In this document: piece by piece, positions 1-7,603 of the stretch
How the letters are laid out: every line of letters starts with the position of its first letter
Position numbering within the stretch: position 1 is the stretch's first letter
From: an uncultured beta proteobacterium
GTDB taxonomy: Bacteria > Pseudomonadota > Gammaproteobacteria > Burkholderiales > SG8-39
Direction: 5' to 3'
DNA: 7,603 nt
Assembly: GCA_902826155.1 (NCBI GenBank)
Contig: CADEDU010000042.1
Coordinates: 19,564 to 27,166, forward strand
Program-made: the position numbers and the translations under genes
The notes under the pieces: model-generated
Databases searched by the model: none
Seen by the model: the letters and a program-made list of their open reading frames with translations, nothing else
What the model was told of the DNA's origin: nothing

Positions 1-524
1 CCCAGGTCGATCTTGGTGATCACCAGCCGATCGGCGACGGCGACCTGCTTCATCGCCTCGCTCATTGTCGCCAGCGAGTTCGCCCCGTTCACACAATCGA
101 CCAGCGTGACCACGCCGTCGAGCCGGTAGTGCGTCGCCAGCATCGTGTCGCTCACCAGCGAATGCATGATCGGTGCCGGATCGGCCAGGCCACTGGTTTC
201 GATGAACACGCGATCGAAATCGATGACCTCGCCGGCACGCCGCTTGATGAACAGCTCGCGCAGCGTCTCCTGCAGATCGGTCCGCACCGCGCAGCACAGG
301 CAGCCGTTGGCCAGCAAAGTCATCGACTCGGTGGAATCGGCCAACAGCGCGTGGTCGATGCCGACCTCGCCGAACTCGTTCACGATCACCGCCGCCCGGT
401 TCATATCCGGATGGCGCAACAGTCTGGAGAGCAGCGTGCTCTTGCCGCTACCCAGAAAGCCGGTGATGATCGTGATCGGGATGCGGCCGGCGAACGGATC
501 GCGGCCGCCGCCAGCCTGACTCAC
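1..524 (-). CDS. COG0523 / CobW-type G3E GTPase, putative metallochaperone (3' end outside window)
   Basis: I read 174 codons on the minus strand from a GTG at 524-522; the C-terminus lies beyond the left edge. Motifs appear in the order of the G3E family: Walker A GFLGSGKS (residues 22-29), the metal-switch segment NEFGE (49-53), the metal-binding CxCC motif C75-L-C-C78, ETSGLADP (109-116, Walker B region) and the guanine-specificity motif TKID (170-173). The family hydrolyses GTP to insert or move Zn, Co or Fe for client metalloproteins in the cytoplasm. The GTG overlaps the stop of the upstream propeller gene as GTGA, implying translational coupling. The specific subfamily (CobW, YjiA, ZigA, nitrile hydratase activator) cannot be set without the C-terminal domain. 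The family call is very secure; the GTG start is likely, since the preceding in-frame codons offer no better start. Confidence 0.93.
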   Translation of the reverse strand, partial: MSQAGGGRDPFAGRIPITIITGFLGSGKSTLLSRLLRHPDMNRAAVIVNEFGEVGIDHALLADSTESMTLLANGCLCCAVRTDLQETLRELFIKRRAGEVIDFDRVFIETSGLADPAPIMHSLVSDTMLATHYRLDGVVTLVDCVNGANSLATMSEAMKQVAVADRLVITKIDL

Positions 525-1771
525 ACGGTCATCTCGAGCACGTAGACGCCGCCGATGTGGCGATCGACCGCGAACAGCAGGCGCCGATCGTCGACATAGC
601 AGTCGTTGATCTGGATCGCCCCGCTGGGGGCCATGCGGGGCGCGGCCGGCACGTAGTACGCGATCTCCTGCGGCTGGTACGGGTTGCTGGTATCGAACGC
701 GCGCACGCCGCCGTTGAAGAACGTACCGACCACGATCGTGTCGGAACGCCACGAAGTCTCCACCGGCAGGTTCTCATGCAGGTTGTGCGCGCCGTAGCGA
801 CCGCCGCGTTTGCCGAACTGCTCGATCGAAGGCAGCGGGAAGGTCGAGATCGGCTGCAGGTTGGTCTCCACCCGCGCATCGACCACGCGCACGAGCTTGG
901 GCCAGTCCACGCCGAGATCCTGCGTACATTCGTCCGCCACGATCAGCAGATCGCGTGAGAGCAGCGGCATGCAGGTGTGGCAAAAGCCGTTGAACGGCGG
1001 CGAGTAGTTCCAGTTGCTCACCAGCCGGGGCTGACTCTTGTTACTGATGTCGAGGATCACTGCGCCGCCGTCGATGTAGCCGATGTAGGCGCGATCGGGG
1101 CGCTCGGGATAGATGTTGGCGTTGTGGACGCGAAAACCGGTGTCGAATGGCTTGGGCATGCGCGCGGGCGGCGGTGCCGAGTCGCCCTTGCGTGTACCCG
1201 GATACCACCAGCGGCCCGCTTCCACCGGCTTCGATGGATTGCGAACGTCGACGATCATGTAGCACTGGTCATCGCTCGGATGGGTGGGCTCGAAATCCGC
1301 CGCGCCGCTGGCCATGTGCACGAACTGGCCATCGACGAACCACACGCAGTGCACGCCGCGCGAATGCGGCCCGGAGCGATCGAAGTGCGAGATCAGCTTC
1401 GGCGCTTCCGGCGTGGAGATGTCGAACAGATCGAAGCCGGCCGGCTTCATGCCGACGTTCTTGGTCTGGTAGGCCACGCACATCGTGTCGCCCACGACGT
1501 CGAGCGAGTTGGAGCGCACGTTCGCATGCGGCAGTTCGGTCTGCACCACCTGCTTCAGATTCTTCGGATCGGTGACATCCACCGCAGTGAAGTTCTTCGG
1601 CGCCGATTCGTGCGCGAGCCACAGGATGCGCCGGCCATCCTTGGTCTTCTGCATCGCCATGCCCTCGCCCACGCCGCCGAAGCCCGACAGTTCGTGCTGC
1701 GAAATGAGCTTCATGTTCCAGGCCAGGGCCTGATCCGCCCTGCCTGCCGCGCCGCCAAAGGTCGTTGCCAT
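521..1771 (-). CDS. LVIVD-repeat beta-propeller protein, His-rich, cytoplasmic, unknown function
   Basis: The product has 416 residues. Repeated units end in a 'V-D-(I/V/T)-x-(N/D)-P-x-x-P' pattern: VDVTDPKNLKQV (64-75), FDISTPEAPKLI (116-127), VDVRNPSKPVEAG (174-186), LDISNKSQPRLV (240-251), VVDARVETNLQPI (296-308) and FDTSNPYQPQEI (359-370). This is the LVIVD-type repeat, which folds as a beta-propeller, here about six blades. Histidines recur in conserved-looking loops: GPHSRGVH (H136, H141), RVHN (H216), CHTC (H265) and AHNLHE (H329, H332). They may form a metal site on the propeller axis (inference). I start at ATG 1771 because a GAGAAGA Shine-Dalgarno (1781-1787) sits 9 bases upstream. 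The open frame extends 81 codons further, but that stretch has poor composition. No signal peptide or membrane segment is seen. It forms an operon with the G3E GTPase and is divergent from the amidohydrolase. Confidence 0.85.
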   Translation of the reverse strand: MATTFGGAAGRADQALAWNMKLISQHELSGFGGVGEGMAMQKTKDGRRILWLAHESAPKNFTAVDVTDPKNLKQVVQTELPHANVRSNSLDVVGDTMCVAYQTKNVGMKPAGFDLFDISTPEAPKLISHFDRSGPHSRGVHCVWFVDGQFVHMASGAADFEPTHPSDDQCYMIVDVRNPSKPVEAGRWWYPGTRKGDSAPPPARMPKPFDTGFRVHNANIYPERPDRAYIGYIDGGAVILDISNKSQPRLVSNWNYSPPFNGFCHTCMPLLSRDLLIVADECTQDLGVDWPKLVRVVDARVETNLQPISTFPLPSIEQFGKRGGRYGAHNLHENLPVETSWRSDTIVVGTFFNGGVRAFDTSNPYQPQEIAYYVPAAPRMAPSGAIQINDCYVDDRRLLFAVDRHIGGVYVLEMTV

Positions 1772-1780
1772 GTGTAGAGG

Positions 1781-1787
1781 TCTTCTC
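1781..1787 (-). promoter_or_regulatory. Shine-Dalgarno of the propeller gene
   Basis: GAGAAGA on the minus strand lies 9 bases before ATG 1771-1769. It decides this start over the much longer upstream open frame, whose possible starts lie in the divergent intergenic region. Confidence 0.55.
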
Positions 1788-1917
1788 GTTGTGGGATGAG
1801 ACGTCGGTGGAAGACACGAGGGTAACGGCGCGCATAGCGAAGTGCAACGGCGCGCGAACGGCGGCTCGATCCTGCACCTAACGGATCGTGCTGGCAGGTC
1901 GTACGGACGCGCACAAG

Positions 1918-1941
1918 CCGCGCGTATGATGCCTCGCGCGG
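1918..1941. repeat. Perfect 7-bp inverted repeat around the -10-like box
   Basis: CCGCGCG (1918-1924) and CGCGCGG (1935-1941) are exact reverse complements separated by 10 bases that contain TATGAT. Its position would suit an operator blocking a promoter. However, the arms are simple GC alternation, which arises easily in a GC-rich genome. Confidence 0.4.
1925..1930 (+). promoter_or_regulatory. Candidate -10 box for the amidohydrolase gene
   Basis: TATGAT matches the sigma-70 -10 consensus at 5 of 6 bases and lies 63 bases before the ATG. The matching -35 region (around 1902-1907, TACGGA) is poor, so the promoter may need an activator or be fortuitous. The box sits in the loop of the CCGCGCG/CGCGCGG palindrome (1918-1941). 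Confidence 0.3.
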
Positions 1942-1984
1942 AGCACGTCGCTTCTGTTGAGCACTCACGCGTCACCAACAAAAC

Positions 1985-1990
1985 GAGGAG
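1985..1990 (+). promoter_or_regulatory. Shine-Dalgarno of the amidohydrolase
   Basis: GAGGAG is followed by ACC and the ATG at 1994. The match to the anti-SD is strong, although the 3-base spacing is short. It supports this start, which also places the Tat motif at a normal depth from the N-terminus. Confidence 0.65.
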
Positions 1991-1993
1991 ACC

Positions 1994-3517
1994 ATGACCA
2001 CCCTTCCCGATCACGATCCATCAGCGCGTCTTCATCCCGACGACTGCGCGTGCTGTACTCCTGCGCTTTCGCGCCGCGGATTTCTGCGTGCTGCCGCGCT
2101 TGGTGCCGTTGCCACACCCGTACTGACGAGCATGTCAGCGTGCGCCACCGGCGCAGGCGCCGAGTCGATCACGGCTGGCCAGCCGATTCTCATCAAAGGC
2201 GGCTGCGTGTTGTCGCTCGATCGCGGCATTGGCGATTTCGAACAGGCCGACGTGCTGGTCGAAGGCTCGAAGATCGCGGCGGTGCGCCCCAACATTGCGG
2301 CGCCGAACGCGGCGGTCATCGACGCGCGCAATACCATCGTCATGCCAGGGTTCGTCGACACGCACCGTCATATGTGGCAAGGCATCCTGCGCAACATCCT
2401 GCCCGATGGCTCGCTGCAGGACTACATTCGCGTGGTGCAACGCATGGTTGGTCAGGCCTATACGCCCGACGACGTCTACGCGGGCAATCTGTCGAGCGCG
2501 CTCGGTTGCATCGATGTGGGCGTGACCACGGTGCTCGACTGGTCGCACATCCACATGACGCCCGCGCACACCGACGCGGCGATCAAAGGCTTGCAGGAAT
2601 CGGGCGTGCGCGCGGTGTTCGCCTACGGTACGCCGCAGCACGAATCGGGTGACTGGACCAAAGCGCCGAACCATCGATTCCCCGGTGACATCGCCCGCCT
2701 GCGCAAGCAGTTCTTTTCCTCCGAGGACCAGCTGCTTACGTTGTTCCTGGCCTCACCGGGCGGCACGCCCGAGGCGATCCTGCCCACGTGGCGAGCCGCG
2801 CGCGACGTCGGTGCGCGAATCACCATCCACGTCGGCGTGGGCGAGTTCGGCCGCAATGCGCTGCTCGAACGCCTGCACAAGATCGAGCCGCTGCGTTCGG
2901 ACACGACCTACATCCACTGCTGCACGCTCAACGACACCGAGTGGAAACTGATCCGCGATTCGGGCGGCACGGTGTCGATTGCCGGGTACGTCGAGACGCT
3001 GATGGGTCACGGCAATCCACCCACGCAGAAGGCGATCGACTTCGGCGTGCGTCCCAGCCTGAGCGTGGATGTCGAAACCTCGGTGCCGAACGATTTCTTC
3101 ACGCAGATGCGCACCGTACTGTCGCTGCAGAAGAATGAAGTCTGGGCACGGCGGCTCGCCGGTCAGAAGGACGCAGGCCGCTTCCTCACCGCGCGCGAAG
3201 TGCTGGAGTTCGCCACCATCGAAGGCGCCAAGGCCAATGGTCTGGAGCGCAAGGTCGGGTCGCTCACGCCGGGCAAGGAGGCCGACATCATCCTGCTGCG
3301 TACCGATCGGCTAAACGTGATGCCGATGAACAACGCCGTCGGCGCAGTGGTAACCAGCATGGGCCCGCAGAACGTCGACACGGTGCTGATCGGCGGCAGG
3401 ATCAAGAAGCGCCACGGCGAACTGCTGGGCGTGGACATGGCGCGTATCACGCGCGTGCTCGACGCGGCACGCGAACGGGCGCTGGCCAACGGCAAATACC
3501 CGCGCAACCGGGTATAG
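1994..3517 (+). CDS. Tat-exported amidohydrolase (cytosine deaminase / ATZ-TRZ chlorohydrolase-like)
   Basis: The product has 507 residues. The N-terminus has a twin-arginine signal, SRRGFLRAAALG (26-37), then a hydrophobic stretch ending TSMSAC50. That resembles a degenerate lipobox, so the mature protein may be a periplasmic lipoprotein. A C-A-C-C cluster (18-21) precedes the signal. The catalytic domain is a COG0402-type TIM barrel: VDTHRHMWQG carries the metal-binding H124-x-H126, HVGVGE gives H279 and E284, IHCC gives H308, and SVDVETS gives D359. A C-terminal beta-sandwich segment follows (LTPGKEADIILL, 424-435; VLIGGRIKK, 464-472). The family hydrolyses C-N bonds, deaminating or dechlorinating N-heterocycles such as cytosine, guanine or triazines; the substrate here is unknown. 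Family relatives are mostly cytoplasmic, so the export signal is notable. AGGAG (1986-1990) lies just before the ATG. Confidence 0.9.
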   Translation: MTTLPDHDPSARLHPDDCACCTPALSRRGFLRAAALGAVATPVLTSMSACATGAGAESITAGQPILIKGGCVLSLDRGIGDFEQADVLVEGSKIAAVRPNIAAPNAAVIDARNTIVMPGFVDTHRHMWQGILRNILPDGSLQDYIRVVQRMVGQAYTPDDVYAGNLSSALGCIDVGVTTVLDWSHIHMTPAHTDAAIKGLQESGVRAVFAYGTPQHESGDWTKAPNHRFPGDIARLRKQFFSSEDQLLTLFLASPGGTPEAILPTWRAARDVGARITIHVGVGEFGRNALLERLHKIEPLRSDTTYIHCCTLNDTEWKLIRDSGGTVSIAGYVETLMGHGNPPTQKAIDFGVRPSLSVDVETSVPNDFFTQMRTVLSLQKNEVWARRLAGQKDAGRFLTAREVLEFATIEGAKANGLERKVGSLTPGKEADIILLRTDRLNVMPMNNAVGAVVTSMGPQNVDTVLIGGRIKKRHGELLGVDMARITRVLDAARERALANGKYPRNRV

Positions 3518-3526
3518 CAACCGGGT
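3496..3526 (+). repeat. Hairpin and 13-base tandem duplication across the amidohydrolase stop codon
   Basis: ATACCCG (3496-3502) and CGGGTAT (3509-3515) form a perfect 7-bp stem with a 6-base loop, ending at the TAG stop (3515-3517). In addition GCAACCGGGTATA (3504-3516) is followed directly by GCAACCGGGTCTA (3517-3529), a 12-of-13 match. No U-run follows the hairpin, so it is at best a weak transcription end signal. It may equally be a byproduct of a small slippage duplication that created or moved the stop. Confidence 0.5.
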
Positions 3527-3638
3527 CTAACTAGCGGCCGCCGTGGCGTGCGTATCGCTGCAACGCGCTGCGGCGGAATCTCTGTGCGTCGCTCAAGTTG
3601 TCGCAGCGAAGCCGCACCGTCAGATCAAGCCGGAACGA
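3518..3638. other. Convergent intergenic spacer
   Basis: These 121 bases separate the 3' ends of the amidohydrolase (plus) and the Bug receptor (minus). The only symmetry I see is CGCTGCG (3566-3572) against CGCAGCG (3602-3608), with a 29-base loop. There is no T-run on either strand and no credible small gene. A rho-dependent or weak bidirectional terminator is possible but not demonstrated. Confidence 0.4.
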
Positions 3639-4625
3639 TTAGTCCGCCTTCAAGCCGGCAAGCTTGACCAGCTTGCTCATGCGCTCGAAATCCTGTTTGA
3701 TGAATTCGGTGAACTCTGCCGGCGTGGTGCCGCGCGGTTCGGCGCCCTGATTGACCAGTTGCTCCCTCATCTCGGGCAGTGCAAGGGTTTTCATCATCGC
3801 CGCATGGACGCGTTCCACGACCGTGTTCGAGGTGCCCTTGGGTACGAGCACTCCATACCAGCTGGCGGCGTTGTATTCCGGGTAGCCCGATTCAGCCACG
3901 GTCGGCACATCGGGCAGCGTTGGTGACCGCGTGGCACTGCCGACTGCAATTGGCCGCAGCCGACCGCCACGAACGTGCGACAACGGCGCTGAAAGAGGCG
4001 TGAACGACCATTGCGCTTCGCCCGATATCACCGCACCGACCGACTGGCCTGCCCCCTTGTACGGCACATGTACCGCGCGCGCCGCCGTGATCGAGTTGAA
4101 CAGCAATCCGGCGAGATGGCTGGCCGAGCCGATTCCAGCTGAGGCCATGTTGAGCTGATCCGGTTTCTCCTGCATGAGCGCCACCAGTTCCTTCACGGTG
4201 GTTGCCTTCACGGCGTTGTTGACCACCAGCAGATTCTGGCCGATGGCGAACAGCGAGATCGGCACGAAGTCGGCGAGGGTGTCGTAGGCGAGCTTCTTGT
4301 AGGTGTGCGGTGCGATAGTCAGCCATGCGGATGCACCTAACAGCAGCGAATAGCCGTCCGGTGCCGACTTTGCGGCGGCCTCGGCGCCGATGATGCCGCC
4401 GGCACCGGCACGATTGTCGATCACCACCGACTGACCCAGCGCTTCGGCGAACTTGTGGGCGAACACCCGGCCGAGCACATCCGAGGCGGCGCCCGGCTGC
4501 TGCGGGACGATGAGGCGAACGGGTTTGTTCGGATAATCGTCGGTGGTCTGCGCGTGCGCCGCACTGACACCCGCTGCTAGCACGAGAGCCAGACCTGCAC
4601 GCCTTGCCGTCGTCCAACCATTCAT
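3639..4625 (-). CDS. Bug/TctC-family tripartite tricarboxylate-type solute-binding receptor
   Basis: The product has 328 residues, the usual length for the family. A Sec signal peptide (basic ARR at 7-9, hydrophobic core 10-20) probably ends at AHA25 before Q26. The mature start YPNKPVRLIVP (31-41) is a Bug hallmark, as are PGAASD (44-49), VVIDNRAGAGG (67-77), the PDGYSLL segment (89-95), VHVPYKG (185-191), LPDVPTVAESG (237-247) and WYGVLVPKGT (256-265). The protein binds a small carboxylated ligand in the periplasm. The TctA/TctB permease genes are absent here, as is common for orphan Bug receptors. Start ATG 4625 has a GAGGAGG Shine-Dalgarno 8 bases upstream. The gene sits 49 bases after the JAMM gene on the same strand, so read-through is possible, but a functional link to the Ubl operon is unlikely. 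The ligand is unknown. Confidence 0.95.
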   Translation of the reverse strand: MNGWTTARRAGLALVLAAGVSAAHAQTTDDYPNKPVRLIVPQQPGAASDVLGRVFAHKFAEALGQSVVIDNRAGAGGIIGAEAAAKSAPDGYSLLLGASAWLTIAPHTYKKLAYDTLADFVPISLFAIGQNLLVVNNAVKATTVKELVALMQEKPDQLNMASAGIGSASHLAGLLFNSITAARAVHVPYKGAGQSVGAVISGEAQWSFTPLSAPLSHVRGGRLRPIAVGSATRSPTLPDVPTVAESGYPEYNAASWYGVLVPKGTSNTVVERVHAAMMKTLALPEMREQLVNQGAEPRGTTPAEFTEFIKQDFERMSKLVKLAGLKAD

Positions 4626-4674: not shown

Positions 4675-5310
4675 TCATAGACCGATCGAAGCGCTGCTGA
4701 TCGTGGTGCGGTCGAGTTCAAGGGCGTCGGGGCCGAGATAGCACCGTTCGATCGACGCCGCGTCGGTGGCGAACGGATCGATCACCCAGCCGACGCTATA
4801 GGCGTGCGCGAAGAACGCACGCTGCGTGCGCCGGTCGGTACCGCTGAAGAACGCGCCCAGGTGCGGATGGCTGTGATACCAGCCCACCACGAGCCGACCG
4901 TCGCGCAATCGCTCGCGCGCCTTGGTCCATACCGAAGTGCCCAGTTGCAGTGAGATGGCGGTACTCGCGTAGTCGTCGCCGGGCAAAGCTTCGAGTACGC
5001 GTACCACGGCGACCGTTTCACTGGCGCCGGCCGCAGTGGCATGCGTGAATGCGTCGCCGATAAGCAACCCGCCAAGCTCGGATTCGCTGCCTCGGAGATG
5101 GGCGAAGACCTGCTCGCGCATGGTCTGACCGATGATCAGCAAAGGAAGCGCCTCGCGGCGCTGCTCCAGTGCGGCGGCGATCCGCAGCACATCGGACACC
5201 GACTCACCACGATAGAGCGCAGTGATCGGTTTGGGGCCGACCTCGGCCGGTTGTTCGCGCCATTGGATCGCGGCCACGTTCAGGTGCTCGCGGTGAACGT
5301 GTGTGCGCAT
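4675..5310 (-). CDS. JAB/JAMM (MPN+) metalloprotease, predicted Ubl deconjugase/processing peptidase
   Basis: From ATG 5310 the product has 211 residues. The JAMM zinc site is complete: E78 in ESELGGLLIG, then H146-S-H148-P-x6-S156-x2-D159 in HSHPHLGAFFSGTD. In this family the two His and the Asp bind Zn while Glu activates water. These enzymes cut after the C-terminal Gly of ubiquitin-like proteins or remove them from targets. No membrane segment or signal is seen. About 60 residues precede the MPN core and I do not recognise them. The chosen ATG overlaps the E2 stop (5282-5280) by 31 bases. A GTG at 5277-5275, just past that stop, is an alternative start (200 residues), and neither has a clear Shine-Dalgarno. 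The gene ends the operon E1-Ubl-E2-JAB. The family call is secure; the start is uncertain. Confidence 0.93.
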   Translation of the reverse strand: MRTHVHREHLNVAAIQWREQPAEVGPKPITALYRGESVSDVLRIAAALEQRREALPLLIIGQTMREQVFAHLRGSESELGGLLIGDAFTHATAAGASETVAVVRVLEALPGDDYASTAISLQLGTSVWTKARERLRDGRLVVGWYHSHPHLGAFFSGTDRRTQRAFFAHAYSVGWVIDPFATDAASIERCYLGPDALELDRTTISSASIGL

Positions 5311-5915
5311 TGCGGACAATGCACCGTCCCAGATTTGCCGGCAGGCAGGCGCAAGCGGGTCGTACAGCGTGGGCACGGCACCAGGACGCGATCGTCCGGC
5401 GCTCGCGGCTCTTGCCAACGCACGCTCGGGTTCGTCGATTCGACCGCCTGCAATTCAACGCGGTCGGTGGGAAACGCATCGGGATGCTGCGCCGCCACGC
5501 GCTGGTACCAGTGCATGGCCTCGCCGTTCGCCGCCGACTGCAGATTGAGCAGCAGCGGATCGAACGTCAGCAATCGGGCGATGCGTTGCACGAACAGATC
5601 CATGCCCTCGCTCGCCAGCCACTTCGCGCCCAGGCACACCAAGCCCGATGCGAACACGTTCGGATGGAAGATCGGCGTGGTCACGAGCGCGGCGGGCGGC
5701 TGGAACGGATAGCGCGCTCCCAGATCGATCACGACGCGCGAGGCCGGCTGTTTGACGCGCGGATATTCGCGCGAGCCGACCGTGAAGTAGCGCAGGTCGA
5801 TCACGTAGCGATCGGGTCGCGCATCTTCCAGCACCGAGATCTTGCCGTCCGAGCTTTGCGCGAGCGAACGCAAACGCGCCAGGTCGGCGGCGCGGCGCAC
5901 GGCGCTTACCGACAT
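5280..5915 (-). CDS. E2-like ubiquitin-conjugating enzyme with C-terminal zinc ribbon
   Basis: The product has 211 residues. The UBC fold is recognisable: the beta-strand region RYVIDLRYFTV (36-46), YPFQPPAALVTTPIFHPN (69-86) with the YPxxPP and HPN (84-86) signatures, then catalytic C94 in GLVCLGAKW. The spacing from HPN to Cys equals that of eukaryotic E2s, so the enzyme looks active and thioester-forming. A helix-rich segment (105-145) follows. After it comes an extra module, C181-PR-C184...C200-PQ-C203, a compact zinc ribbon absent from a minimal E2 and possibly a target- or partner-binding element. I chose ATG 5915, 25 bases after the Ubl stop; the open frame extends 23 codons further but would run back into the Ubl gene. 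The 3' end overlaps the start of the JAMM gene. Confidence 0.93.
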   Translation of the reverse strand: MSVSAVRRAADLARLRSLAQSSDGKISVLEDARPDRYVIDLRYFTVGSREYPRVKQPASRVVIDLGARYPFQPPAALVTTPIFHPNVFASGLVCLGAKWLASEGMDLFVQRIARLLTFDPLLLNLQSAANGEAMHWYQRVAAQHPDAFPTDRVELQAVESTNPSVRWQEPRAPDDRVLVPCPRCTTRLRLPAGKSGTVHCPQCAHTFTAST

Positions 5916-5940
5916 GCCTGTCCCGTCGCTGCGTGATCGA

Positions 5941-6201
5941 TCAGCACCAACCCGCGACGAGCACCGGCTGGACTTCGAGCACATCCCCCTCCTTCACCTT
6001 GGAGCGGTCCAGCACCTCATGCGGCGCTAGCGCCATCCCGGTCGTGACGTTGACGAGCGTGTAATCGGTGTCGGCCGGCAGCGCCCAGTTGTCGACGGCC
6101 GACTGGACGACCTCGCTGCCCGTACTGGTGCCGGCGATAGTGATCTCGGCCTTGCGGGTCTGATCGGCAGTACGCACGATGAGTCGGGTGTCGTCGGCCA
6201 T
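5941..6201 (-). CDS. Ubiquitin-like beta-grasp protein, conjugation substrate of the operon
   Basis: The product has 86 residues, a typical single-domain ubiquitin-like size. The layout fits a beta-grasp: two N-terminal strands (RLIVRTA at 6-12, AEITIAG at 18-24), a helix (GSEVVQSAVDNWAL, 28-41), a strand (YTLVNVTTG, 47-55) and a last strand after the EGD turn (VLEVQPVLVAG, 74-84). The chain ends A83-G84-W85-C86 rather than in GG, so G84 could be exposed by removing two residues, plausibly by the JAMM enzyme in the same operon (inference). No Lys is near the tail. Sequence similarity to ubiquitin itself is low. The call rests on size, predicted fold and position between E1 and E2 genes. The start is firm: GGAGG lies 8 bases upstream, and the ATG is 3 bases after the E1 stop. 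YukD/EsaB-type Ubl is the main alternative family. Confidence 0.85.
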   Translation of the reverse strand: MADDTRLIVRTADQTRKAEITIAGTSTGSEVVQSAVDNWALPADTDYTLVNVTTGMALAPHEVLDRSKVKEGDVLEVQPVLVAGWC

Positions 6202-6204
6202 CGC

Positions 6205-7377
6205 TCAATCCTCCAGTTCGATACACAGTGTGGACTGCCTGAAACGCGCGAGCACGAATTTGGCTGGCAGCGATTGTCCGGCGAAGTCGCGCTCCAGCTC
6301 GTGCAGGGGAAACTGGTCGCGAATCTCGATCTGCACCGCGCGCTGTCGGCAGCGTGGACATTGCATCACGCGATCGTCAAAGCCGCTGGCCCGCTGCAAC
6401 AGCATCTGCGATGCCTCGGGCAACTCGCCGCATCGTGCGCAACGATAGCTGGTGATGAGCGGGTCGCTGAGCGTGAGATCCGCATCGTCGTCCAGCCCCA
6501 GGTCGAGCGTGCGCGTGAGCGCGCGCCGCGCACGAATGAGCTGCGGTCGCGCGGCCAACGACGCGCAGCCGATGCATTGCTCGGCGGGTGCGAGCCGCAC
6601 GCTGGTGCTCGTGCCGCCGATCGTGTCGAGCAGCACACGGCGTGCGCCATCGGTGCGATCGGAACGATCGGAGTGCGCAGTCTGGCCCAGGCGCAACGCC
6701 TGCGATGCTGCCAGTGCGCCCGCCGCGCTGGCGGTGATCGTGGTGGTCGGGATCTTGCGCGCCTCGAACGCGCGCTTTTTGAGCCAGCCGCACGAATAGC
6801 GTTCGGCGATGCGCTGGTAGGCGCTTTGCGGCAGGTGACATTCGAAGCACGCCCCGCAGCGTGCGTTCGAAAATGGAAACACTTCGATCGACGCGTAGCG
6901 GCTGTCCAGACCCGCATTGACCAGATCGACGCCTGCGATCAGACACATCTGATTGAGCCGGATGCGCGCCTCGAAATTGTCGACGCAGGCAACCGCGCAC
7001 GAGTAGGTCTGCAGTGCATGCAGCGACAGCGTGTCCCAGAAGTCGCCCTCGATCGCGCGCAACGAGACGTTCGGATCGAGCAGCGCCGCACGTTCGGCAA
7101 CGACTTCAGCCTTCGAACGTCCGACGTCGCCATCGCGAAAGAACACGCTGCGGGTCAGGTTGTGCGCTTCGATGCGATCGAAATCGAACACGTCGATCCG
7201 GCCCGCACCGAGCAGCGCGAGATTCTTCACCACCTCGTTGCCGACCGCGCCGGCACCGATCACCGCGACCCTGGCTTGCGCAACCTGCTCCTGCGAGAAC
7301 CAGTCGATCAGCGCGTGCCGTGCGTAGCGTTCGTCAGCCACGGCGGATGCCGGTGCGACCCGCTCAGTCGACGACAT
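6205..7377 (-). CDS. E1-like ubiquitin-activating enzyme (ThiF/UBA family) with extra C-terminal zinc domain
   Basis: The product has 390 residues. The ThiF adenylation domain begins RYARHALI (18-25). It carries the nucleotide loop G41-A-G-A-V-G46, DFDRIEAHNLTR (65-76), K89 and CVDN with D133, all expected for ATP/Mg binding and acyl-adenylate formation on the Ubl C-terminus. C174, C177 and C180 (CGACFEC) pair with C268-IG-C271 as the E1 structural zinc site. The catalytic Cys is probably C196 in RYSCGW, because the segment matching the eukaryotic catalytic loop reads IPTTTITAS (209-217), with Thr where Cys is expected. Residues 300-390 add a C313-AR-C316...C340-PR-C343 zinc ribbon and a short beta-rich end, perhaps E2-binding. 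Start ATG 7377 overlaps the upstream gene by 14 bases. The open frame runs 68 codons further but only by shadowing that gene. Confidence 0.93.
   Translation of the reverse strand: MSSTERVAPASAVADERYARHALIDWFSQEQVAQARVAVIGAGAVGNEVVKNLALLGAGRIDVFDFDRIEAHNLTRSVFFRDGDVGRSKAEVVAERAALLDPNVSLRAIEGDFWDTLSLHALQTYSCAVACVDNFEARIRLNQMCLIAGVDLVNAGLDSRYASIEVFPFSNARCGACFECHLPQSAYQRIAERYSCGWLKKRAFEARKIPTTTITASAAGALAASQALRLGQTAHSDRSDRTDGARRVLLDTIGGTSTSVRLAPAEQCIGCASLAARPQLIRARRALTRTLDLGLDDDADLTLSDPLITSYRCARCGELPEASQMLLQRASGFDDRVMQCPRCRQRAVQIEIRDQFPLHELERDFAGQSLPAKFVLARFRQSTLCIELED
6210..6214 (-). promoter_or_regulatory. Shine-Dalgarno of the Ubl gene, inside the end of E1
   Basis: GGAGG on the minus strand lies in the last codons of E1 and 8 bases before the Ubl ATG (6201). 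It is the best ribosome binding site in the Ubl operon, consistent with the Ubl being needed in larger amounts than the enzymes. Confidence 0.7.
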
Positions 7378-7603
7378 TGACCGGCCCGATGTCGGTGCCG
7401 TTGCACACCGTGCAGCGATGATGATTCTCGCGGCCGAGCACTTCCACGCTCTCGTGATGGAAGAAGCTCTGACAGCCCGCGCACCGATACAGCGGCTTGG
7501 CAGGATCGAGCGGCGCGCTCGAAAACGCGTCGCGCAGGCCGGCCAGATCACTGCGCTTGACCACGTGCGCCAGCCCCGCATCGCCCGACTTCGAGCGGCG
7601 CAG
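7364..7603 (-). CDS. C-terminal part of an unidentified protein ending in a Cys/His zinc finger (5' end outside window)
   Basis: The frame is open to the right edge, giving 79 residues and a TGA at 7366-7364. A GTG at 7564 could start it, but nothing marks that as the true start, so I treat the gene as 5'-truncated by the window. The visible part has one clear module: C41-AG-C44, then HH (49-50), HH (61-62) and C64-TV-C67. This is a zinc-ribbon or treble-clef layout whose CxxC...H...EN...CxxC order faintly recalls prokaryotic RING-like fingers. It overlaps the E1 start by 14 bases and so belongs to the Ubl operon. An E3-like or target-adaptor role is conceivable but unproven. The upstream domains are needed to name it. 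Confidence 0.7.
   Translation of the reverse strand: MRRSKSGDAGLAHVVKRSDLAGLRDAFSSAPLDPAKPLYRCAGCQSFFHHESVEVLGRENHHRCTVCNGTDIGPVNVVD

Follow-up and report, generated by a model that had tools for sequence, protein, structure and literature searches.

A compact set of genes that probably serve ubiquitin-like conjugation was identified on a stretch of DNA from an uncultured beta proteobacterium (7603 nucleotides of GenBank contig CADEDU010000042.1, positions 19,564 to 27,166), and this whole stretch is referred to here as the window. Five tightly packed genes, called as open reading frames (ORFs), run on its minus strand from 7603 to 4675, and encode a zinc-finger protein, an E1-like activating enzyme, a ubiquitin-like protein (Ubl), an E2-like conjugating enzyme, and a JAMM metalloprotease, in this order. 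We consider it probable that they make up a complete, self-contained ubiquitin-like conjugation cassette. A full set of conjugating and deconjugating activities had been proposed in an earlier note on this DNA, and both the conservation of the motifs and the profile matches argue well for it. Moreover, this tightly packed gene order is found again in loci of other genera, indicating that the cassette did not arise by chance.

The putative conjugation and deconjugation genes

The five genes and their coordinates are listed in Table 1. At the junctions, the zinc-finger and E1 genes overlap by 14 bases, 3 bases separate E1 from Ubl, and 25 bases separate Ubl from E2; the E2 and JAMM genes overlap by 31 bases if the latter starts at ATG 5310, or are 2 bases apart if it starts at GTG 5277. 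The coordinates and junctions thus bore out the same-strand, packed operon described in the earlier note. Its zinc-finger gene was confirmed as present but not as a whole gene, since the window edge cuts it. The Pfam models ThiF, UQ_con, and Prok-JAB all matched proteins of the window above their cut-offs. Relatives were collected by scanning 84,980 species genomes once with two peptide patterns, both of the Ubl, and this gave 34 loci, numbered with the prefix L.

The E1-like protein, of 390 residues, contains one ThiF stretch, i.e., one adenylation domain, plus a C-terminal zinc-ribbon region. Conservation was counted in 30 of 35 E1s, and R20, K89, D133, C177, C180, C196, and C268 were invariant in all of the aligned proteins, with C271 kept in 29. 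The intact ThiF/E1 nucleotide site claimed for the window was therefore supported by R20, K89, and D133. Cys196 lies within RYSCG, 14 residues ahead of a conserved PTT, and is a candidate for the thioester cysteine. The catalytic Cys of UBA5 lies in a loop that may be comparable. The end-to-end alignment of E1 with UBA5 and MccB had no long insert, and so nothing in it pointed to a separate Cys domain. When the family profile was used, eukaryotic E1s came first (1e-36), and the solved BubCD was far weaker (2e-10). Models of ThiF and MoeB matched below their curated cut-offs, and two CxxC pairs are present. A plasmid search with E1 returned one distant match (42% identity, 52% covered), and a search of a collection of phage records returned none.

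The Ubl of the window had no Pfam match of its own, and the Ubl profile found no meaningful relative among PDB sequences (best value 0.043). YukD was matched in Pfam by 21 of the 45 aligned Ubls at E up to 0.1, the best at 6e-7. The AlphaFold model, based on 45 sequences, showed one domain with the beta-grasp strand order and a flexible end, at a mean pLDDT of 84. It matched chains of ubiquitin, SUMO, and ISG15, with the best match to Caldiarchaeum ubiquitin (E 4e-6, TM 0.78, 24% identity); in agreement, the earlier description of an 86-residue beta-grasp-like protein was upheld by the model and by the ubiquitin and SUMO fold matches. The C-terminal sequence QPVL[V/G]AG was kept in all 120 relatives listed of the 514 found, and 58 of these end at the conserved Gly, while 62 extend for 1-35 variable residues. 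In the window the protein ends with VLVAG followed by WC, thus carrying a single conserved Gly (Gly84), unlike the di-Gly of ubiquitin. Since the relatives either stop at this Gly or continue with a variable tail, it seems likely that the mature protein functions with Gly84 as its end, and that the tail, where present, is cut off.

The E2 sequence matched solved E2s, such as UBE2T (2e-8), and the family profile ranked UBE2A/B first (1e-12). The catalytic cysteine, Cys94 in the window, was kept in 120 of 120 relatives, and the motif ahead of it was HPN in 97, HPH in 17, and NPN in 6 of them. The window has HPN, and this motif and Cys94 were found at the positions claimed for them. The classical E2 His is present in 114 of the 120 relatives and in the window, and a C-terminal CxxC..CxxC zinc ribbon in 111.

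For the protease, the Glu, both His, and the Asp of the JAMM site were invariant in 19 of 19 aligned proteins, so that the complete site described for the window was confirmed, and the Ser was kept in 90% or more. The family profile found RPN11 first (5e-15) and a Caldiarchaeum homologue at 2e-14. On these motifs, the protein is probably the tail-processing and deconjugating enzyme. We prefer GTG 5277 as its start because the N-termini of relatives read M[K/R]W.

Relatives, the J-domain gene and the zinc-finger protein

When the 34 loci were searched with the window proteins by phmmer, E1 and Ubl were found in 34, E2 in 32, JAMM in 30, and the zinc-finger protein in 27, or in 28 if a cut copy in L023 is included. 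Contigs of five loci (L009, L010, L022, L026, and L034) begin or end within the module. The recurrent gene order was zinc-finger-(J)-E1-Ubl-E2-JAMM, where J denotes a stand-alone J-domain gene, present in 23 of the 36 loci compared. In the gene order it follows the zinc-finger gene and precedes E1, or immediately precedes E1 in loci whose zinc-finger gene lies downstream. These genes had been missed by the ORF length filter, and were found in these loci by gap reading and a hand-made motif. The seven J-domain proteins tested have 68-86 residues and start with M, often as MKW; Pfam DnaJ matched six of them above its cut-off, and the seventh, from L025, at 0.012. Many JAMM and J-domain proteins begin with M[K/R]W.[D/E], and perhaps this start is a docking motif shared by both.

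No J-domain gene was found in the window, in its neighbours on the E1 tree (L007-L011, L015, L018, and L029), or in L030-L033. The J label needed 2 changes on this tree, versus an average of 10.8 for shuffled labels. The fork of the window lineage had a support of 84/89 and was drawn open, and L026, on a cut contig, was left out of the tree. L023, labelled Desulfobacterales, fell inside a proteobacterial clade, the rows labelled Marinimicrobia grouped with a Rhodospirillaceae one, and L025, labelled Flavobacteriaceae, stood apart on a long branch. All of these are metagenome-assembled genomes (MAGs), and they may be misbinned.

The occurrence of the module is rare and patchy. Genome-wide E2 searches, in which the best few candidates per genome were scored, gave profile matches as follows, with the centre included. 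Among 398 Pseudomonadota the one match was the centre; among 296 Vibrionaceae there were 4 (three already known, the fourth being L061); and two further families, of which 298 and 349 genomes were searched, had one match each, again the centre. In the two distant loci L061 (9083-9373) and L025 (3967-4314), the JAMM gene is followed directly by genes for similar small proteins, which we take to be DUF4236-like.

The four relatives found for the zinc-finger protein of the window (P0241-P0244) have 122-123 residues and a hydrophobic N-terminal stretch, and full-length relatives, with a hydrophobic helix at the N-terminus, are predicted to be membrane-anchored. The finger residues D, C-x2-C, S, and C-x2-C were invariant in 27 of 27 aligned proteins, which have only one zinc site, and the finger profile was weakly PHD/RING-like, with the PHD of BPTF as its best match (E=0.023). 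The protein is a candidate E3 or membrane tether. Prok-RING_1 (PF14446) matched the L011 protein at E 0.15, below its cut-off, with no listed match for the 9 other relatives scanned or for the window fragment; in the genomes of 12 relatives it was above the cut-off in none, and its matches were just as weak in 12 of the 14 well-known genomes used as controls. Many of the relatives add an OB domain to the finger protein, at the C-terminus in L014 (7785-8624), L012, L022, and L027, and this fold may hint at nucleic-acid binding. Foldseek and VIA-align resolved only the OB domain, with no RING or PHD chain among the rows listed; because the OB domain filled these lists, they are uninformative about the finger. 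In L001-L006, the zinc-finger genes encode a signal-peptide-like start and Cys-rich repeats ahead of the membrane helix, as if the protein had an additional outside domain.

Table 1. Genes of the cassette in the window, and the J-domain gene of related loci
Feature	Position	Strand	Remarks
Zinc-finger gene	7603 (open)-7364	minus	last 79 codons; 5' end beyond window edge
E1-like activating enzyme	7377-6205	minus	PF00899 (ThiF) 1e-39
Ubiquitin-like protein (Ubl), 86 aa	6201-5941	minus	YukD-like beta-grasp; model and fold match
E2-like conjugating enzyme	5915-5280	minus	PF00179 (UQ_con) 4e-9; UBC domain
JAMM/MPN+ metalloprotease	5277 (GTG) or 5310 (ATG) to 4675	minus	PF14464 (Prok-JAB) 1e-11
J-domain gene (related loci)	e.g. 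L014 8624-8875		L001-L006, L012-L014, L016, L017, L019-L025, L027, L028, L034, L035, L061

Proposed mechanism and relation to known systems

We infer the chemistry of the following cycle from conservation, and the target and the function as an E3 are likewise proposals. The JAMM protease would trim the WC tail of the Ubl, exposing Gly84. The E1, which is probably a homodimer because it has one adenylation domain, would adenylate Gly84 and then hold the Ubl on Cys196 as a thioester. From there the Ubl would move to Cys94 of the E2 and on to a target lysine at the inner membrane, with the membrane-anchored zinc-finger protein guiding E2 to its targets, as an E3 or as a tether. Removal of the Ubl tag from the targets by the JAMM protease would reverse the mark.

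The module is a variant of an already predicted kind, the prokaryotic E1-E2-RING-JAB systems; since such E1-E2-JAB-RING systems were predicted earlier in the literature, the kind itself is not new. Burroughs, Iyer, and Aravind reportedly predicted them in 2011, with YukD-like Ubls; compared with the systems reported there, the three enzymes, the JAB, and the YukD-like Ubl are alike, whereas the fingers described here fall under the Prok-RING_1 cut-off. To our knowledge, in the part of the relevant literature covered, there is no experiment on this form. A literature search for J-domain genes in bacterial Ubl operons recognised no description, the primary papers of 2011 and 2024-2026 being outside its coverage.

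One paper describes complete systems in which JAB and E1 are combined with a RING-type E3 and a Ubl-E2 fusion, and cites Burroughs 2011 (PMC7159879), and Iyer 2006 lists several types of bacterial E1-E2-JAB operons (PMC1779556). According to another study, the bacterial genomes analysed there had no complete Ub toolkit (PMC4327156). One of the closest known systems is the Ub-E1-E2-srfp(RING)-Rpn11 cascade of Caldiarchaeum subterraneum, which works in vitro, in a paper that also notes some complete operons in bacteria (PMC5654768). Both provide the same activities from a compact cluster with the JAMM gene adjoining, and have a pro-Ubl with a C-terminal tail (PMC5654768); in addition, the Ubl model and the JAMM profile of the window match Caldiarchaeum proteins. 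On the other hand, the window set is bacterial, with only one Gly at the conserved end of its Ubl and one zinc site in its finger protein, which in relatives also has a membrane helix; nothing in E1 points to a separate Cys domain, and a J-domain gene is found in the sister lineage. The Ubl is also like YukD/EsaB (PF08817), as seen in the Pfam matches above; YukD is described as belonging to an ESAT-6 export context and as not being conjugated (PMC1779556), whereas the window Ubl sits with E1, E2, and JAMM. Two other assignments were tried and rejected. In type 6d of Iyer 2006 the E2 lacks the classical His (PMC1779556), which the window E2 has. Type II CBASS combines an E1-E2 fusion with a CD-NTase; here E1 and E2 are separate genes, and no CD-NTase family was found among the window proteins scanned.

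It is very improbable that the operon is a plain member of the Bil or Bub families, with which it shares E1, E2, Ubl, and protease, as well as the vicinity of defence genes in some relatives. In Bil, these components, with a JAMM protease, likewise lie in one operon, and its E1 has inactive and active adenylation domains and a Cys domain, its E2 (BilB) a CEHH motif, and its BilA two Ub-like domains (PMC11354881). The window operon has instead an E1 with a single adenylation domain, an HPN E2, a separate single-domain Ubl of 86 residues, and the extra membrane zinc-finger gene. The E1 domains, the CEHH motif, and the two-domain BilA, three defining features, thus place it outside Bil (PMC11354881), and the earlier suggestion of a subtype of its own was supported by the separate single-domain Ubl, the E1 architecture, and HPN. 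PADLOC reported matches to none of BilA, BilB, and BilC at E up to 1, and the match to BilD was weak (1e-7) versus the best E1-E2 model (7e-19). Bub operons are likewise bacterial Ubl-conjugation operons, and some lie near immune regulators or restriction-modification (R-M) genes (PMC13373217), but the E1 profile of the window matches BubCD only distantly, far behind eukaryotic E1s. Another very improbable explanation is a sulfur-carrier or cofactor pathway of E1, Ubl, and JAB, comparable to ThiF/MoeB with ThiS/MoaD; the E2-like protein would then serve some other purpose. The ThiF/MoeB matches under the cut-off, the one adenylation domain, and the two CxxC pairs in E1 are consistent with it, and JAB-linked sulfur operons exist (PMC1779556). 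The canonical E2 with its invariant Cys and mostly HPN, the RPN11-like JAMM, and the conserved extra Cys196 of E1 argue against it, and no cofactor or sulfur gene was recognised in the window.

Possible roles in defence or protein quality control

We tentatively favour anti-phage or anti-mobile-element defence as the most likely biological role of the cassette. A more specific version is rather doubtful: an as yet unnamed class of mobile bacterial Ubl immunity, in which a membrane-tethered, single-zinc, RING/PHD-like E3 would carry out conjugation at the inner membrane, a larger form would be coupled to Hsp70 by a dedicated J-domain protein, with incoming phage proteins or assemblies being tagged and unfolded, and the window would hold the minimal five-gene form. 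The flanks of nine isolate loci were scanned with PADLOC (88 of 90 listed flank ORFs, and 9 of 32 ORFs of L035), and the results rest on the 25 PADLOC families listed out of 115 matched; L017, a near copy of L016, was left out, and the flanks of L061 were read by eye. Defence genes lay within 10 kb at four of the nine: a type III methylase and restriction enzyme with PDC-S11 just upstream in L012, QatA, QatC, and QatD about 2 kb downstream in L014, KwaB about 1 kb downstream in L016, and, in L027, PDC-S28 with a type I restriction subunit, both downstream at about 3 to 6 kb. On the viral contig L035, the complete module of six genes (7815-14397) adjoins a type II R-M pair. We read this contig as a prophage, with genes presumably portal- and UmuDC-like on one side, and lysis and capsid genes beyond the R-M pair. 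No complete defence system was recognised in control regions around alanyl-tRNA synthetase of the same nine genomes (117 of 124 ORFs scanned), and the comparison of 4/9 with 0/9 loci, small and unblinded, gave a one-sided p of about 0.04 by hand.

The modules of L016 and L014 likely lie within genomic islands. Near them, a gene that we read as integrase-like adjoins tmRNA in L016 (13381-15152), and one that we read as serine-recombinase-like adjoins tRNA-Ser in L014 (2673-4334).

Several observations weigh against defence, or against the zinc-finger E3 in particular. The control regions also matched 19 PADLOC families at 1e-10, among 117 proteins, versus 115 families among 97 module-flank proteins (nine from L035); the 19 control families included an isolated type I specificity subunit, a QatC-like protein, PDC-S13, MzaA, and RmrA. 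At the other five isolate loci (L019, L020, L021, L024, and L028) no system was assigned from the 25 families listed out of 115 and from 14 flank proteins examined singly; ten flank proteins of these loci gave only MzaA, over part of one L020 protein. Likewise, no assembled defence system was seen in the 95 flank ORFs scanned, out of 128, at MAG loci, including the nearest relatives of the window; scattered single PADLOC matches from 26 families, e.g., DndA and SspA, were seen, and matches of this type were rejected as defence systems and read as housekeeping paralogues. The operon of the window itself lies among metabolic genes: positions 1-4625 encode an LVIVD-repeat protein, an amidohydrolase, and a TctC receptor, ordinary metabolic neighbours of the operon, with what we take to be a CobW-like GTPase fragment. 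In four Porticoccaceae-type loci (L030-L033) no zinc-finger or J-domain gene adjoins the module, leaving E1-Ubl-E2-JAMM. Finally, the one zinc site and the Prok-RING_1 match under the cut-off weaken the E3 role. Phage defence, raised in the earlier note, was in sum supported only indirectly, by the neighbours of some relatives and the copy on a viral contig, and not by the window's own context. As an aside, L030-L033 adjoin the same divergent genes, including one for a 183-residue protein and another that is presumably sigma-factor-like.

The next most likely role is a stress or protein-quality response via Hsp70, suggested because the sister lineage carries a J-domain gene. In this unlikely alternative, the membrane zinc finger and, in relatives, the J-domain co-chaperone would bring damaged proteins to the Ubl machinery. 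The J-domain gene beside E1 in most of the loci compared is consistent with this proposal, as are the ordinary chromosomal neighbours in the window and the MAG loci with no assembled defence system; for Bub operons, similarly, protection against phage is described as yet to be demonstrated (PMC13373217). Against quality control stand the rare, patchy distribution, the defence genes or viral contig near several relatives, and the operon of the window lineage, which has no J-domain gene.

If the cassette conjugates, it would represent a small cascade in bacteria, with E1 and JAMM profiles that match eukaryotic ubiquitin proteins well, the solved Bub E1 being matched only distantly, and with a Ubl fold and JAMM that also match Caldiarchaeum proteins well. 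Such a cascade could be rebuilt in one tube. The choice of targets by bacterial Ubl systems would then become testable, here via the membrane-anchored zinc finger, and so would the involvement of chaperones, via the J-domain partner of the sister lineage.

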